64,000 nt of DNA from Candidatus Cloacimonadota bacterium (lineage in GTDB: Bacteria; Cloacimonadota; Cloacimonadia; Cloacimonadales; Cloacimonadaceae): the NCBI GenBank assembly GCA_020532085.1, contig JAJBAV010000014.1, forward strand, positions 1 to 64,000. Direction: 5' to 3'. The notes beneath the pieces are model-generated. The model was not told the origin of the DNA. It worked only from the letters and a program-made list of their open reading frames with translations, and did not search any database. Shown one piece after another: positions 2,898 through 60,825 of the stretch. Position numbers and translations under genes: made by a program. Each line of letters opens with the position of its first letter. Position 1 is the first letter of the stretch.

Positions 2898-3112
2898 GCA
2901 ATTTCTTTTCTCCGTCCTCCCCAAAAGCTCTGCTGATGACGATTTAAACCGCACAGCCTCATTCAAGGAAACAAGCCGTAAACCCCCTCGCCAGGCGCGA
3001 CTGACCTCAGTATTGGATCCCCATCAACCCCTTGGCATGAAAACAAGGATAATACCCGCCCGGATCCTGAAGAATCCACTTAAAGAATCCAAAGGCCAAA
3101 TCCGCCATCGCT

Positions 3113-3195
3113 CCCAATATCAATACGGTATCAATACGGAATCAATACGGATTTCATCCGTAATGATTCCGTATTGATACCGTATTGATATTGGG
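3113..3195. repeat. Near-perfect palindrome, family 1, copy A
   Basis: Two 40-base arms (3113-3152 and 3156-3195) are complementary at 39 of 40 positions around a TTC loop. Each arm is built from three 11-mer units of the form TATCAATACGG. A second copy at 31288-31380 is identical over about 88 bases, including the single arm mismatch. There is no T-run, so it is not an ordinary terminator. It lies just upstream of the gene at 3292. Confidence 0.9.
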
Positions 3196-3291
3196 GGCCA
3201 GAGGAGGAATTTTAAAGAAACGGCGGGGTGGCAGGAGGGGCGAAATAAATATTGACAAGCAGGGCCGGGTGGAAAGAAGAGTATCATTATT

Positions 3292-13335: not shown

Positions 13336-14661
13336 ATGGATCAGCTTGAATATCTGAAAAGCGTCCTGGATCAGCATCCCGAGCTGCAGTACAGCATCTC
13401 GCAGCGCCATTGGTCCACCGATTTTCTGCGCTTTTACCACAGCGAGACCAACTACAACATCAGCAAGGACAACATCACTCTCGCGGCGGAGCTCTACAAG
13501 GGCAAAAAGTCCTTCAGCTTCGCGATCGAAAACCCTGAACGCGGCAGAACCGATGCCGCCGTGCGCGACGCGCTGGAGGTGATCGACAAACTGCCCGAAG
13601 ATCCCGATTTCGTGGATCTGGAAAACGACCTCACCCTGGCTGAACCGCGCGCGGTGAAAAACAACATCGAAGCCATTCCGCTGGAGCTGAAAACCAGGAT
13701 CCTGGCCAACGTCTCCGCCGCCGCCGCCATGTATGATTTTGACATCTTCGGCACCTTCATCTGCAACCACCAGACCCTCCGGCTGATCAACAGCAACGGG
13801 CTGGACAAGAGCAGCGTGAGTTCGCCCATCTATCTGGAGGTGAAGGCCGTGCACAACAAATCCCAGGTGACCGTGCTGGAAACCTTCGGCGGCGAGGATT
13901 TTGACTTTTTCAACGAACAGGCCTTCACCGAGGACCTGGTGCAAAAGATCCTGTACTGCGCGAACCCGGTGGTGGACGTGGAGCCCGGCCAATACGACGT
14001 TGTGCTGGCCCCGCGCTGCCTGGCGGAATTCACCCAATACCTGGCCTATGGCATGAGCGCCCGCGCCCTGGACCAGCACAGCAGCTGGTTCGAGGGCAAG
14101 CTGGACGAGCAGGTGTTCCCAGCCCACATCAGCATTGTGGACGACCCTTCCGACCCCCGCATGATCCGGGCTGACTACGGCTCCGACGGCCACATCTACC
14201 GCCGCCTGCCCCTGGTGGAAAAAGGCGTGTTCCGCGCCTTCCTCTGCAACAACTACTTCGCCCACAAAACCGGACTGCCCAAAAACGGCAACACCGCTTC
14301 CTGCCTCAAGATCGAGCCCGGCGACAAAACCCTGGAGGAGATGATCGGCGGCATCAAACGCGGGCTGTATATCTCCAGCCTCCACTACATGAACTTCATC
14401 AACCCCCGCGAAACCTCGCTCACCGGCCTCACCCGCGACGGCACCTTCCTGATCGAGAACGGCCGCGTAACCAAGGTGGTGAACAACCTGCGCTTCACCG
14501 AACGCATCGAACGCATCCTGAACAACGTGGTGGAGCTGGAAGACCACTGCGCCACCGTGCCCTTCTCCGGAAACTATGCCAGCTTCGAGATCGAGACGGT
14601 GAAAGCGCCTCACGCCCGGGTGAAGGATTTCAACGTGACATCCTCAACCAAAACCATCTAG
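13336..14661 (+). CDS. TldE/PmbA-family protein (pair 1)
   Basis: 441 residues. It lacks the HExxxH zinc motif of TldD, as TldE/PmbA does, and carries the family C-terminal pattern (NPRETSLTGLTRDGTFLIENGRV, then VNNLRF). TldD and TldE form a heterodimeric protease that degrades unfolded peptides and trims modified peptides; only TldD carries zinc. AGGAGG precedes the ATG. The partner tldD begins 10 bases downstream. Confidence 0.85.
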   Translation: MDQLEYLKSVLDQHPELQYSISQRHWSTDFLRFYHSETNYNISKDNITLAAELYKGKKSFSFAIENPERGRTDAAVRDALEVIDKLPEDPDFVDLENDLTLAEPRAVKNNIEAIPLELKTRILANVSAAAAMYDFDIFGTFICNHQTLRLINSNGLDKSSVSSPIYLEVKAVHNKSQVTVLETFGGEDFDFFNEQAFTEDLVQKILYCANPVVDVEPGQYDVVLAPRCLAEFTQYLAYGMSARALDQHSSWFEGKLDEQVFPAHISIVDDPSDPRMIRADYGSDGHIYRRLPLVEKGVFRAFLCNNYFAHKTGLPKNGNTASCLKIEPGDKTLEEMIGGIKRGLYISSLHYMNFINPRETSLTGLTRDGTFLIENGRVTKVVNNLRFTERIERILNNVVELEDHCATVPFSGNYASFEIETVKAPHARVKDFNVTSSTKTI

Positions 14662-31227: not shown

Positions 31228-31591
31228 CCCCGGCAATTCTCCAGCGGTTACCACCATGCCCAGAGTGGATTGAACCAAAAACCCGTTTGGCCCCCAATAT
31301 CAATACGGTATCAATACGGAATCAATACGGATTTCATCCGTAATGATTCCGTATTGATACCGTATTGATATTGGGGGCCATGGTTCAGGGGTGGCGCAAA
31401 CCGATATGCTACTTCACCCCCACGCTGATAGACGCCAAGATAAGCTCTGTCTACGGTTCAGACTTACAACGGCACCCCGCTCCGGCGCCAGCCTTTGGAG
31501 AACAAGCCAAAGCAAAGCCAAAGATCCGCGATACCAATTCCACGCATGTCTTTAGCGCCGCGGATCTCTGGCAAAAACCGCCACTGCTTTC
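31228..31591. other. Convergent intergenic region with family 1 palindrome
   Basis: Contains the palindrome 31288-31380. The following 211 bases show no gene; frames crossing the palindrome are symmetry artefacts. Confidence 0.6.
31288..31380. repeat. Near-perfect palindrome, family 1, copy B
   Basis: Arms of 45 bases (31288-31332 and 31336-31380), one mismatch, loop TTC. Identical to copy A at 3113 over about 88 bases, and with arms extended by five bases (TGGCC/GGCCA). It lies between convergent genes, whereas copy A lies between divergent genes. Confidence 0.92.
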
Positions 31592-35310: not shown

Positions 35311-36423
<1,113 letters not shown>

Positions 36424-36430
36424 CTAGAGG

Positions 36431-36992
36431 GATGAAGAGAAATGGAGAAAAAGAGAAAAGGTTGCGCAGGGGTCGAAACCTATTACTCAAAGCTAACAAA
36501 GATCTATCAGGCTTTGCCATTTTTTGCCTTGAGTGCCTTGATCAGATTGATCAGCATCGAGCGGACATGTCTGATCTGGGAAGCATATGTGTCAAAATCC
36601 TGGTAATACTCGAGCTGGTACGCAAGTTCCAACTGGGTTTCAAGCTCGGATAGCGAGCCGTTTGCGATGTTCAGAAAGCGGATGAATTCGGGAGTGCTGT
36701 TACGGCTGTGGCCTTCGGCCATGTTTGAGGGTATGGATACAGCACAGCGCCTCATCTGCGAAGTCATGCCATACAACTCATGTTTTGGAAAACTGCTACT
36801 GAGTTTGTACACCGCAAGTGCAAGCTCCATGCTCTTGATGTATACCTCAAGATTTCTGTAAGAACCCATGTTTTCCACCTTTACTCAAGATTATTCCCAG
36901 AATCTCAGATCTCACGATGCCGGTCATCTCAGCTATTCACCCACAACACCTGAATCAACCGCAACTTTTTCTCTTTTTCCCTTTTTCTCATC
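36431..36992 (-). repeat. Inverted-repeat-bounded unit 1 carrying an S23 gene
   Basis: Left arm 36431-36466 (GATGAAGAGAAATGG... ending GGTTGCG) is complementary to right arm 36960-36992 (CGCAACTTTTTCTC... ending TCTCATC): 25 of 29 aligned bases plus GATG after a three-base offset. The right arm overlaps the rseP stop codon (36988-36990). In the transcript kamD-to-tgt the arms could pair and enclose the S23 reading frame, as intervening sequences do in 23S rRNA. The arms are purine-rich, so chance pairing must be weighed. Confidence 0.5.
36507..36869 (-). CDS. S23-type four-helix-bundle protein, copy 1
   Basis: 120 residues from the ATG at 36869 (chosen because the paralogue at 38354 also starts MGSYR; a GTG three codons earlier exists). 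The family pattern is clear: YRNLEVYIKSMELALAVYKL, FPKHELYGMTSQMRRCAVSIPSNMAEG, EFIRFLNIANGSLSELETQLELA. The family is named after proteins encoded in intervening sequences of 23S rRNA and includes the Avd protein of diversity-generating retroelements. Here it stands between rseP and tgt on the same strand. GC is lower than in its neighbours, which suggests acquisition. Confidence 0.93.
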   Translation of the reverse strand: MGSYRNLEVYIKSMELALAVYKLSSSFPKHELYGMTSQMRRCAVSIPSNMAEGHSRNSTPEFIRFLNIANGSLSELETQLELAYQLEYYQDFDTYASQIRHVRSMLINLIKALKAKNGKA

Positions 36993-38274
36993 TGTTCATA
37001 AAGCGCATGATCTCGCTCGTCACATCCGAATACAGGGCCAATATCATCAGTCCCATCAGGATGACAAATCCGATCGACTGCAGAACAGACTGGACCTTGA
37101 GCGGGATCGGCCGGCGGATGATGCCCTCGATGATGGAGAAGAGGATGAGTCCGCCGTCCAGGATGGGGATGGGCAGCAGATTCATGATCATCAGCATGAG
37201 ACTGATGCCGCCAAAGAAGATCAGCAGGCTGCCGAAGCCGCGCTGCCCTATTTGCTGGCTCATGGTGGCGATCATCACCGGGCCGCCGACGGATTTTCTG
37301 AGTTCGGCGGGGCTGCGCAGCAATTTGCCCAGCATCTGATAGTTCATGGCAATGAAGTTGGCAGTGTTGTAGGCGCCCAGCTTGATAGCCTCGAAAACGT
37401 TGAAGCGGCGGTCGTAACGCACCGGCTGGTATTGCATGATGCCGATGGCTCGGCTGCCGCCGGTGTTGAGGCTGGATTCCAGTTTCAGGCTTTTGGTGAA
37501 ACTGGTTCCGTCCCTCTCGATGGTGAGCAACACATTGTCCCGCGGGGCATTGACAATCACTTCCCGCATCGCGTACCAGTCCGCCACAGCTACCGAATCC
37601 ACCGCCGTGATGCGGTCTCCGGGCTGCAGTTTGGCATGGTAGGCCGCCGTTTTGGGCACCACTTCGCCCACCCGGGTGTCGGCGATGGGATAAACGCTGT
37701 TCAGCAGCGAATCCACATCGGTCGCGGAGATCCGGGCTGTCTTAGTCTCTGAGGTTCTTCTGAAAGTCACGGTGCTCTGCTGCGTTTCAAGCAGGCTTTC
37801 CAAGAATTCACTGAATCCTTGCACCGGCCTGCCGTTAACGCTCAGGATGCTGTCGCCGGGGGCGAAAACCTGTGTCCAGGCGCCTTCGGCGCGGCTGATC
37901 ACGGGATACTGGTCCTGGATGTGAACGGGCAGAATGAAGGAAAGGATGAACAGCATCAAACCCAGCAACAGATTGGCAAAGGGCCCGCTGAACCCAATCA
38001 GCGCCTTTTTCCACCAGGCCAAGCGGAAAAAGGAGTCCGCGGCATCCTTGTCCGGAGCATCCGGATTCTCGCCTCTCATCTTCACGTAGCCGCCCAGCGG
38101 GATCCAGCCTATGCGCCAGATAACTCCGTCACGCTTCCACTCTTTGATCGGCTTGCCGAAGCCGATGGAAAATTTTTCGATCCCAACTCGAAACCAGCGC
38201 GCGACTTTATAATGCCCCAGTTCGTGGATAAAAATCATTGCCCCAAAGGCGAGAATCGTATAGAGGAGAGTCAT
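36988..38274 (-). CDS. rseP: Site-2 zinc metalloprotease RseP
   Basis: 428 residues. HELGH at 17-21 in the first membrane helix, then IPLGGYVKMRGE, FSGPFANLLLG, two PDZ-like regions (about 130-290), and the second catalytic motif NLLPIPILDGG near residue 375. This intramembrane protease cleaves anti-sigma factors or other membrane proteins after a first cut. It lies between two S23 units; its last codons are part of the right arm of unit 1. Confidence 0.95.
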   Translation of the reverse strand: MTLLYTILAFGAMIFIHELGHYKVARWFRVGIEKFSIGFGKPIKEWKRDGVIWRIGWIPLGGYVKMRGENPDAPDKDAADSFFRLAWWKKALIGFSGPFANLLLGLMLFILSFILPVHIQDQYPVISRAEGAWTQVFAPGDSILSVNGRPVQGFSEFLESLLETQQSTVTFRRTSETKTARISATDVDSLLNSVYPIADTRVGEVVPKTAAYHAKLQPGDRITAVDSVAVADWYAMREVIVNAPRDNVLLTIERDGTSFTKSLKLESSLNTGGSRAIGIMQYQPVRYDRRFNVFEAIKLGAYNTANFIAMNYQMLGKLLRSPAELRKSVGGPVMIATMSQQIGQRGFGSLLIFFGGISLMLMIMNLLPIPILDGGLILFSIIEGIIRRPIPLKVQSVLQSIGFVILMGLMILALYSDVTSEIMRFMNR

Positions 38275-38296
38275 GATTTACCTTGTTGTGGGATCA

Positions 38297-38804
38297 ATAG
38301 ATGAAAAGATGAACAGAGGAAAAGATGAACGGGGAAAGTAAGGGTGGAGATTCTCATTTGTTATCCTTAACTGCTTTGGGGTCATTATTTTGGTGATACT
38401 TGATCAGTCCGGTCAGCATTTTTCTAATGTACTTAACGTCTTCCGTATATGATCCGATGTTTTCAATATAGCCTAAACGCGAAGCGATCTCCAATTGCGT
38501 TTCCAACTCTGACAATGATCCGTTGGCGATAAAGAGAAATTGAATGAATTCCTTGCGATTATTCCTGCCTGAACCCTCGGCGATGTTCGAAGGAATGGAC
38601 ACTGCGCATCTTCTGAGCTGAGAACAAATTCCAAACAATTCGTGTTTGGGGAAGGATTCTGTGGCCTTGTAAACCCGGACAACAAAATCCATGCTTTTAT
38701 TATAAAGGTCTAAATCACGGTATGATCCCATTTGTACTCCTGCAAATTTTCCCCATACTCTAGCGTCACTGTTAATCTGTTCATCTGTTAATCTGTTTAT
38801 CTAT
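38297..38804 (-). repeat. Inverted-repeat-bounded unit 2 carrying an S23 gene
   Basis: Left arm 38297-38330 (ATAGATGAAAAGATGAACAG...) is the inverse of right arm 38771-38804 (...CTGTTAATCTGTTTATCTAT), 28 of 34 bases without gaps. The right arm covers the kamE stop codon (38781-38783) and its last seven or so codons. The same arrangement as unit 1: right arm over the end of the upstream gene, left arm shortly before the start of the next (rseP, 38274). Confidence 0.55.
38354..38731 (-). CDS. S23-type four-helix-bundle protein, copy 2
   Basis: 125 residues: MGSYRDLDLYNKSMDFVVRVYKA, FPKHELFGICSQLRRCAVSIPSNIAEGSGRNN, EFIQFLFIANGSLSELETQLEIA. Clearly paralogous to copy 1 but diverged. AT-rich (visibly below the neighbours) and ends in a Lys/Asn-rich tail. 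It lies between kamE and rseP on the same strand inside inverted-repeat unit 2. Confidence 0.93.
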   Translation of the reverse strand: MGSYRDLDLYNKSMDFVVRVYKATESFPKHELFGICSQLRRCAVSIPSNIAEGSGRNNRKEFIQFLFIANGSLSELETQLEIASRLGYIENIGSYTEDVKYIRKMLTGLIKYHQNNDPKAVKDNK

Positions 38805-39539
38805 CTTCCTACCAGCCAGCGTAATAGCTATGAAAGACGCAACATCCGTTGAGTATGTGCCAGTGCCAAATCCCGCATCATATCCCAGTTCGATGGCCAG
38901 TTCGTGCGAGATGCGCGGCCCTCCGCAAATGAACAGCATCTTGTCTCTAAGCTGTTCCGCCTCAGCCAATTCGATGAGCCGGGTGAGGTTTTTGATGTGG
39001 ATGTTCTTCTGGGTGACCACCTGGGAAACGAGGATCACGTCTGCGTTTTCAGCGCGGGCGCGGCGCAGCAGTTCTTCCGATGGCACCTGGGCGCCTAGGT
39101 TGATGGCGTTGAACCACTGATAGCGTTCCAGCCCGTAGCGGTGGTTGTAGCCTTTCATGTTCATGATGGCGTCGATCCCCACGGTGTGGGCGTCGCTTTC
39201 GATGCAAGCGCCAACCACGGTGACCTCGCGGCCGATGTTTTCCCGGATGTAGGCATCTGTGGCCTCCATGTCCATGACCGGGGTTTCCACCACTTTCACC
39301 TTGATGTTGGCGGGATCCACAAAGGCGGAAGTGACGGCGTAGGCGATGAAATGGGTGTAGCCTTCACGCAGGTCGCGGACGCCGCAGATCTCGATCTCTT
39401 CAAAGCCGATGCTTTTCAGAAGCAGGCGCGCGGCTTCCTTGCCAAAGGCGTCCGGGGGCACAGGCAGGCTGAAGGAAAGCTGTATCTTGCCGTCGCCCGA
39501 GGTGTCGCCATAGGGGCGAATCATGGTTTTTTTGCTCAT
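38781..39539 (-). CDS. kamE: Lysine 5,6-aminomutase beta subunit
   Basis: 252 residues. A cobalamin-binding subunit: DAHTVG (DxHxxG) gives the base-on cobalt ligand His118, and Lys129 in MNMKG lies 11 residues later, matching the His/PLP-Lys spacing known for KamE (H133/K144 in the clostridial enzyme). With KamD it moves the terminal amino group of D-lysine or beta-lysine to C5 during lysine fermentation. ATGA overlap with kamD. The C-terminal codons (KIDKQINR) are encoded by the right arm of inverted repeat unit 2. Confidence 0.94.
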   Translation of the reverse strand: MSKKTMIRPYGDTSGDGKIQLSFSLPVPPDAFGKEAARLLLKSIGFEEIEICGVRDLREGYTHFIAYAVTSAFVDPANIKVKVVETPVMDMEATDAYIRENIGREVTVVGACIESDAHTVGIDAIMNMKGYNHRYGLERYQWFNAINLGAQVPSEELLRRARAENADVILVSQVVTQKNIHIKNLTRLIELAEAEQLRDKMLFICGGPRISHELAIELGYDAGFGTGTYSTDVASFIAITLAGRKIDKQINR

Positions 39540-59127: not shown

Positions 59128-60825
59128 TCATGTCTTGTATTTGCTTATCAATTCCCTGGCATGCTCCAGCGAAATGTCCGAAACATTTCCGGACAGCATC
59201 CGGGCCAGTTCTTCCAGCCTTTGTTCTGCCTCCAGCGGCACCATCTGGATCACGTTCCTCTGCTTGCCTGCCTCTTTTTGCAACGCCACCTGCTGGTCGG
59301 CGATGGCGGCGATCTGGGCCAGATGCGTGATGCATATGATCCGGTGCCGCCGTGCCAGGGCGAAAATGAACTGCGCTACGTACTCGGCCGTTTTGCCGCC
59401 GATGCCGGAATCGATCTCGTCCAGGATCATCAGCTTTTCCTCGATCCGCTCGGACAACACCTTTTTGATGGCCAGCAGAATGCGGGATAGTTCACCGCCG
59501 GAAGCAACCGCTGAGAGAGGCTTGAGCTCGCTGCCCCGGTTCGCGCTGAAAAAATACTGGCAGGCGTCCTGACCCTGCTCTGTACAGGAATCAAGATATT
59601 CATGCATTATGATTTTGCCATCTGTCTTTTTGTCAACTCTTATTTTGAAACGCGCGTCGGGGATGGAGAGCAAGCTGATGCTCTCGCGCAACTCCACGGA
59701 GAGTTTTTCCGCCGCGGCCCGGCGGTTGGCGCTGAGCTTGTCCCCACTGGCGCGCAGGGCCTCAAAGTCTTTTTCGGTGGCCTTTTCCAATGCTTTGATG
59801 CGTTCGCTCAGATCGGCGTAGGCATTGATCTGGGCCTCCCGCTCGGCAAATACTTCCAGCAATTCGCCGATGTTCTGGGCTTTGTGCTTGTGCAGCAGGC
59901 TGTTGATGGCGTCCAGCCGTTCGCGGATCGCCTCCAGGCGAGCGGGGTCCGCACTCGCCGACTGGCTGAGGTCGCCCAGGGCCGCGGAGTTTTCCGAAAC
60001 CAGTTCCAAAGAGTCGCGCAGGCCTTGCTCGATATTGGCCAGGCGCGGGTCCAGATGGGAAAAACGGGATAGGGCGGCCAGGCTGGCGTTGAGGCGGCTG
60101 TGTACGCTGTTTTCGCTCTCATAGAGGTCAAAGCAGGCCGCGGCCGCGGTTTCGGCGATCTCCTGGGCGTGGCTGAGCAGTTCGAATTCCTGCTGCAGCT
60201 CGAGGTCCTCACTTTCGCGCAGGGCGGCTTTCTCCAGTTCTTCGAACTGATACTGGTAAAGCTCCCGCAGCTGGCGGTCCTGTTCCGCCTTCGCCTTCAG
60301 GCTTTCCAGTTCTTTGAGGCTCTCGCGCAGGCCTCTGTATTGGGTGGAAAAAGCGCTCAAACAGGCATCGTTTTTGGCATAGAGGTCCAGCAGATGCAGT
60401 TGGTAGGCCGCTGAGAGCAGCCGCTGCTGGTCGCGTTGATGGTGAAAATCGATCATCAGGGGCTTAAGTTCCCGCAGCAGTGATGCCGTCACCTTGCGCC
60501 CGTTGAGGAAATAACTGGATTTCCCGGTGGTGCTCACTTCCCGGGCCAGGATCAGCTCCGGTTCCGGTTCATAGCCCTGCACGGCCAGCCAGTTCCGCAC
60601 TTCCGAGTTTCGGGAAAGGTCAAAGCTGGCCTCCAGATAGATGGGCTGAGCAGGATCGAAGGCTTCCAGGGCAGGGGACGGATCGGCGAAAATGAGAGCC
60701 ACAGAGCCCACCAGGATGGATTTTCCCGCGCCTGTTTCCCCACTCAGGACCGTCATGCCCGGGCCGAAAACCAGCCGCTGTTCGGGCACGAAAAGGTAGT
60801 TGCGGATCTGGATCCCGGTCAGCAT
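59128..60825 (-). CDS. recN: DNA repair protein RecN
   Basis: 565 residues. SMC-like ATPase: Walker A GETGAGKS (29-36), long central coiled coils (about 150-370), signature VASGGELSRILLAIK, Walker B LMILDEIDSGIGG and the C-terminal QVALQKEAG. It acts in double-strand break repair. Starts immediately after the nadK stop. Confidence 0.96.
   Translation of the reverse strand: MLTGIQIRNYLFVPEQRLVFGPGMTVLSGETGAGKSILVGSVALIFADPSPALEAFDPAQPIYLEASFDLSRNSEVRNWLAVQGYEPEPELILAREVSTTGKSSYFLNGRKVTASLLRELKPLMIDFHHQRDQQRLLSAAYQLHLLDLYAKNDACLSAFSTQYRGLRESLKELESLKAKAEQDRQLRELYQYQFEELEKAALRESEDLELQQEFELLSHAQEIAETAAAACFDLYESENSVHSRLNASLAALSRFSHLDPRLANIEQGLRDSLELVSENSAALGDLSQSASADPARLEAIRERLDAINSLLHKHKAQNIGELLEVFAEREAQINAYADLSERIKALEKATEKDFEALRASGDKLSANRRAAAEKLSVELRESISLLSIPDARFKIRVDKKTDGKIIMHEYLDSCTEQGQDACQYFFSANRGSELKPLSAVASGGELSRILLAIKKVLSERIEEKLMILDEIDSGIGGKTAEYVAQFIFALARRHRIICITHLAQIAAIADQQVALQKEAGKQRNVIQMVPLEAEQRLEELARMLSGNVSDISLEHARELISKYKT

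Follow-up and report, generated by a model that had tools for sequence, protein, structure and literature searches.

The intervening sequence (IVS) in the 23S rRNA of Coxiella, which RNase III excises, contains an open reading frame (ORF) for an S23 protein and has already been suspected to have originated as a mobile element (PMC4990558). Here we describe S23 genes that lie between protein genes. In a 64,000-nt stretch of DNA from a Candidatus Cloacimonadota bacterium (GenBank assembly GCA_020532085.1, contig JAJBAV010000014.1, positions 1 to 64,000; hereafter the window), one S23 gene was found between kamE and rseP (unit A) and another between rseP and tgt (unit B), each enclosed by a pair of inverted arms. 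Comparison with other genomes and plasmids showed that such an S23 unit comes and goes at fixed junctions, takes its arms along when it moves, and decays in some hosts.

The short tandem repeats that make up many of the arms have described counterparts as well. Cyanobacterial short tandemly repeated repetitive (STRR) sequences are built of 7-nt tandem G-rich units akin to heptamer repeats. In Xanthomonas, G-rich heptamers are arranged as inverted pairs, 70-75 of them in each genome, which lie between genes of the same direction and shortly after the end of the upstream ORF; their description does not mention S23 (PMC4692102), and the TAACTGA heptamers of Beggiatoaceae were likewise reported without a link to S23 (PMC4679880).

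S23 genes are enclosed by arms specific to the locus

The first-pass annotation of the window had placed an S23 gene between two 34-base arms at 38297-38330 and 38771-38804, and its description of unit A held up: 28 of the 34 positions are identical without a gap, the enclosed gene matches PF05635, the right arm includes the stop and the last codons of kamE, the left arm stands ahead of rseP, and kamE, S23 and rseP are all on the minus strand. The best random window of equal spacing reached 23 of 34 (0 of 950 as good), and an independent repeat search returned nearly the same pair (38292-38324 and 38769-38801, 33 nt, 79% match). Comparison with shuffled sequence, which the annotation had set as a check, also came out in favour of the arms. 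Their alignment score was 23, whereas 2000 dinucleotide-shuffled versions of the two arms scored 7.9 ± 1.4 and none of them was as good, and the energy of the RNA duplex formed by them was -30.3 kcal/mol, compared with -19.6 ± 3.3 kcal/mol for shuffles (1 of 500 as good). The C-terminal end of KamE in relatives differs from the one that the arm now encodes.

Four S23 genes are present in this genome, the two of the window and two elsewhere (L003 and L004). When their flanks were examined, as had also been proposed, all four were found to be inverted, with a different repeat sequence at each; the arms of unit B (28 of 33 positions matching) are AGAAAAAG-like, those of L003 GAGTGCG-like and those of L004 GTTTAGAGG-like.

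A set of 121 distinct S23 loci was assembled from this class (Cloacimonadia) and from 80 loci fetched by name, which came from Bacteroidota, Pseudomonadota, Planctomycetota, Acidobacteriota, candidate phyla and others. The flanks paired above the threshold at 77% of the loci, compared with 2.5% for random windows of the same loci and 4.8% for 5' flanks set against the 3' flank of a different locus. Within the class the paired fraction was 79%, whereas that of ParE toxin genes (19 loci, same-class genomes) was 5%. The arms of one locus match each other and differ from those of other loci, and only close copies have arms in common. Clearly periodic arms have a repeat unit of 7 (or 14), 8 or 9 nt; there is no clear period in about 30% of the S23 arms. 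The arm strand, read inwards, contains 30% G and 11% C, and G exceeds C in 92%.

How the two arms change can be seen in the orthologous units between rseP and tgt of four species. These arms are either of the AGAAAAAG type (G000 and G007) or of the GGGAAAAG/GGGCAAAAG type (G008 and G010), in each case on both sides, and pairing between arms of different type is mostly weaker than within a type. Such joint change would also follow from DNA-level copying between the arms.

The enclosed protein is under purifying selection, the ratio of nonsynonymous to synonymous substitution rates (dN/dS) being 0.05-0.30 in eight informative comparisons. Relatives of S23 in the PDB are 2gsc and 2rld. Besides that of S23 A, the window contains a PF05635 match of 128.2 bits.

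Units are placed sense-wise at operon junctions

S23 units lie at the junctions of cistrons, after one stop codon and ahead of the next start, in the sense direction. In these placement counts gene positions were set by a longest-ORF rule and not by curated annotation. Both neighbours were found at 134 loci; they were both in the direction of S23 at 121 and both opposite at 2, and the bias held separately in this class, in other phyla and in cyanobacterial plasmids. Since 85% of the adjacent gene pairs in the same loci share a strand anyway, location in an operon is only mildly enriched, whereas the sense direction of S23 within the operon is extreme. At 80 of 95 loci the stop codon of the upstream cistron falls inside the 5' arm or precedes it by no more than 20 nt; the native gap, as reconstructed for the state without the unit, has a median length of 20 nt.

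Two plasmids from different genera (L213, Pseudanabaena galeata; L230, Anabaena sp. 90) have S23 units between cas6 and cas4 of loci of clustered regularly interspaced short palindromic repeats (CRISPR).

Filled and empty sites

A search for empty kamE-rseP junctions in relatives, another check laid down by the first-pass annotation, was positive: in most relatives the two genes are directly joined or overlap. At the same junction S23 units with different arms are present in G009, G008 and G020, and a decayed remnant of S23 is left in G004.

Comparison of cyanobacterial plasmids provided further pairs. Site 1 is filled in Trichormus and Scytonema and empty in Aulosira, Nostoc carneum and Tolypothrix, with flanks that are about 97% identical, and the insert is bordered on both sides by GTAAT, a sequence containing the upstream stop TAA. 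Site 2 (three filled, two empty) has a repeated CTA or TTCTA, again at the stop codon, the length of this duplication being ambiguous because some of the bases could be unit ends. At site 3, ATG is repeated at a stop/start overlap. The direct duplications at the three sites measure 3-5 bp and are known from plasmid sites alone. There is no clean duplication at site D (L226/L232), where the insert lies within the last codons of the upstream gene and some bases were lost. In Nostoc ATCC 53789, the S23 units of plasmids a and c occupy two different gaps of one and the same operon, each plasmid thus representing the empty site of the other. In Trichormus variabilis ATCC 29413, plasmid C has an S23 gene at 60378-60743.

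Two S23 genes of G119, each on a contig of its own, have in common a block of 612 bp that extends past the arms and has unrelated flanks on the two contigs, which shows that the unit moves together with its arms. The comparison of G011 with G009 had suggested that the target sequence serves as the template of the arms, an idea that was rejected because transposed copies bring their own arms; moreover, cyanobacterial units retain TCAGGAG arms at several sites. At L182 and L183 (G119), longer non-periodic inverted ends (TTTAAACAGAGATTCC and AAATATATATTCAA, with their inverted partners) stand outside the heptad arms, unlike in most units.

S23 is the sole gene of the unit, in which neither a transposase nor a reverse transcriptase was found, and S23 had no match among 50,697 phage records. 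Of the features of a transposon, presence/absence with duplication is displayed by the unit, and terminal inverted repeats conserved across copies are not. The view that the unit is a mobile element targeting gene ends, first put forward in the annotation, is well supported by the empty sites, the duplications, the transposed copy and the placement at stop codons.

Pairs of periodic inverted arms that enclose no ORF were observed at L028 (G034), L222 (Nostoc ATCC 53789 plasmid c), L269:12091-12284 and 14169-14359, and L270:7226-7325; those of L222 are at a site where the sister plasmid has an S23 unit. These arm pairs may be derivatives that have lost the gene.

GxxExxY genes are boxed in the same manner

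A blind scan for inverted repeats covered 464 kb of this genome, and among the repeats that it yielded, those with a long loop and clearly periodic arms enclose either S23 or GxxExxY (PF13366, PD-(D/E)XK). Paired arms were present at 79% of 33 GxxExxY loci, compared with 1.8% of random windows and 10.7% of swapped flanks, and both neighbours were co-directional at 27 of 29 loci. Boxed GxxExxY genes on contig 1 of the same genome (L267:10726-11402, L268:11681-12158, L268:13764-14464 and L268:15392-15884) have arms with a period of 9-10 nt. The architecture is therefore not peculiar to S23. The GxxExxY units resemble S23 units in having inverted periodic arms and in lying sense-wise in operons; they differ in that the protein is unrelated, the period is 9-10 nt where there is one, and the bias of G over C is absent.

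Features of the window and other repeats of the genome

The features of the two units are listed in Table 1. Unit B (36434-36992), which is one gene away from unit A, was absent from the first-pass annotation.

Table 1. Positions of the S23 units and adjacent cistrons in the window, in the order of transcription
Feature	Position	Strand	Remarks
kamE (lysine 5,6-aminomutase beta), upstream cistron	38781..39539	-	C-terminus now arm-encoded (..DKQINR*)
5' arm of unit A (transcript orientation; right on + strand)	38769..38804	-	contains last codons and stop of kamE
S23 gene A (23S_rRNA_IVP, four-helix bundle), 125 aa	38354..38731	-	PF05635, 129.5 bits; TIGR02436
3' arm of unit A (transcript orientation; left on + strand)	38292..38330	-	just upstream of rseP; repeat search and arm alignment
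rseP, downstream of unit A and upstream of unit B	36988..38274	-	TIGR00054
5' arm of unit B (right on + strand)	36960..36992	-	overlaps end of rseP
S23 gene B, 123 aa, 57% identity to S23 A	36507..36878	-	profile match
3' arm of unit B (left on + strand)	36434..36466	-	just upstream of tgt
tgt, cistron downstream of unit B	35311..36420	-	TIGR00430

Several units of this genus share a CTGCGC or TTGCG motif at the inner arm edge (window 36460-36470 and 36955-36965; L006, L007, L011). Two further kinds of repeat were noted in the genome. One is a near-identical palindrome resembling repetitive extragenic palindromic (REP) sequences (TCAATACGGTATCAATACGGAATCA, with a loop of about 20 nt), which is distinct from the boxed units and occurs in many copies (window 3109-3197 and 31287-31379; L267, L271, L274, L281, L283, L285). 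The other is a dispersed repeat, AGACGGAAGGCGGTGGCTTCAGCCACCGT, with direct and inverted copies in L271, L275, L279 and L280.

Possible mode of spread and alternative explanations

The reading that we favour, with a probability of roughly 0.65, is that a small mobile unit has S23 as its only gene and lives off operon read-through, the arms pairing in RNA and S23 helping the unit to spread. Such a unit would measure 0.4-0.7 kb and consist of a 5' array of 7-9-nt repeats, the S23 ORF and an inverted copy of the array. It would be expressed by read-through transcription from the host operon; dependence on read-through would account for the sense bias of 121:2, as a mere hairpin would work in both directions. 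In the transcript the arms are predicted to form a stem of about 30 bp closing a loop that carries the S23 ORF, as in rRNA IVSs, and the minimum-energy structure of the 541-nt transcript of unit A does pair them. Double-strand RNases such as RNase III, which is encoded by this genome, may cut the unit free of its neighbours. S23, a four-helix relative of the retroelement accessory protein Avd, would then bind the arm hairpin of its own unit and aid its spread, with cutting and copying enzymes presumably provided in trans. In this manner S23 may promote the movement of its own unit.

Several observations weigh against this interpretation. Folded as a whole, the 541-nt transcript does not exceed its shuffles in stability (z 0.6). 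Among arm mismatches there is no excess of G-U over A-C (243 compared with 309, slightly in the opposite direction), hence there is no sign of selection on pairing in the sense RNA. About a quarter of the S23 loci have no arms at the threshold used. Some of the dS values behind the dN/dS ratios are saturated, and the very close pair L214/L223 gives a ratio of 0.87, on too few changes to mean much. Finally, no reverse transcriptase domain (RVT_1) was found in G008 and G019, two S23-bearing genomes that are both about 99% complete, and a reverse transcriptase is therefore not required in every host.

An alternative is a DNA transposon similar to miniature inverted-repeat transposable elements (MITEs). 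The arms would then be terminal inverted repeats served by a transposase in trans, S23 would be cargo or accessory, RNA pairing would be incidental, and the sense bias would arise because antisense copies are unexpressed or purged. This fits the short direct duplications, the transposed copies that bring their arms, the lack of a G-U excess, the solo hairpins without an ORF and the identical boxing of an unrelated PD-(D/E)XK gene. However, the arm sequence is different at almost every locus, even in one genome, which a sequence-specific transposase is not expected to tolerate, and the strong sense bias and the purifying selection on S23 also speak against such an element. We regard a MITE-like origin as possible and, on balance, doubtful.

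The first-pass annotation had seen in unit A the architecture of an rRNA IVS placed in an mRNA. One part of this stands: as in an IVS, an ORF of the S23/IVP family is surrounded by complementary ends. A location in a 23S (or 16S) rRNA gene is ruled out by the neighbours kamE, rseP and tgt, and an Rfam scan of the window returned tRNAs only. As a general description the claim proved too narrow, given the locus-specific tandem arrays of 7-9 nt and the GxxExxY genes boxed likewise. In a true mRNA IVS the main role of the arms would be to form a stem cut by RNase III, which would release the S23 mRNA and divide the transcript of the operon at a place where no cistron is harmed. RNase III does cut the S23-containing 23S IVS of Coxiella (PMC4990558), and the RNase III gene of this genome, the sense orientation between cistrons and the strength of the arm duplexes relative to shuffles are consistent with such a role. 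Against it stand the missing G-U excess and the unremarkable stability of the whole unit; moreover, a hairpin is cut in either orientation, so that cutting alone leaves the sense bias unexplained. We consider this explanation, too, rather unlikely.

A third possibility is retro-mobility, in which an Avd-like S23 would present the unit RNA to a reverse transcriptase acting in trans and the cDNA would be inserted at operon junctions. The sense bias and the operon location agree with it, as does the weak but consistent similarity of S23 to Avd models (E 1e-5 to 1e-6), which stays below the cut-offs (26.4 bits with a cut-off of 40, and 29.1 with a cut-off of 80). This genome has two RVT_1 matches, both on other contigs and none adjoining S23. 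With the near-complete genomes G008 and G019 lacking the domain altogether the idea lost support, and we now hold it to be improbable.

That the arms are ordinary intergenic tandem repeats, with S23 nearby by chance and no joint mobility, is very improbable: heptamer repeats are indeed abundant between genes in several genomes (PMC4692102, PMC4679880), but the two arms pair locus-specifically, the long-loop periodic repeats of the 464-kb scan enclose S23 or GxxExxY, and in filled/empty pairs the limits of the insert are those of the arms, the presence/absence pairs refuting the idea for most loci.

Comparison with known systems

S23 (annotated as 'four helix bundle') and GxxExxY are common bacterial genes without a known function, and intergenic repeats of 7-10 nt have been a separate puzzle. 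Joining the two gives both a testable role, as the gene and the ends of one mobile unit. It also makes a decades-old question, what rRNA IVSs are and whether S23 mobilises them, accessible to experiment in culturable hosts such as cyanobacteria, and it indicates that operon junctions can be invaded without breaking genes. No paper linking S23 or GxxExxY to repeat arms was found in the openly licensed literature, and an earlier description elsewhere is possible.

The G-rich heptamers of Xanthomonas and Nostoc (PMC4692102) share with the S23 arms the 7-nt tandem units, the frequent arrangement as inverted pairs and the location between co-directional genes behind the upstream ORF; they were described as repeats or quadruplex formers, unconnected to S23, GxxExxY or insertion units. 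MITEs and the systems of REP doublets forming hairpins (REPINs; PMC3116915) and REP-associated tyrosine transposases (RAYTs) are also short mobile inverted-repeat units, some of them geneless and possibly served in trans. Unlike these, the S23 unit has no Y1 or other transposase, and its arm sequence is not conserved between copies. Avd of diversity-generating retroelements has a related four-helix fold and its profiles match S23 weakly. However, S23 stays outside the Avd family when membership is taken as a profile score above the curated cut-off together with an adjacent reverse transcriptase, which the S23 loci do not have.

The closest resemblance is to the 23S rRNA IVSs of Leptospira and Coxiella (PMC4990558), which also combine an S23 ORF with complementary ends, are sporadic and selfish-looking, and have a similar length (428 nt in Coxiella). 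The units described here differ from them in lying between protein genes and not in a 23S rRNA helix, and in having hypervariable tandem arrays as arms; excision by RNase III is known for the IVSs and is proposed here. We see even odds that all these belong to a widespread, undescribed class of mobile units, in which one small ORF (S23 or GxxExxY) is boxed by self-matching, fast-changing tandem-repeat arms and inserted in the sense direction at the stop/start junctions of operons without a recognisable transposase, and of which the rRNA IVSs would be a special case.
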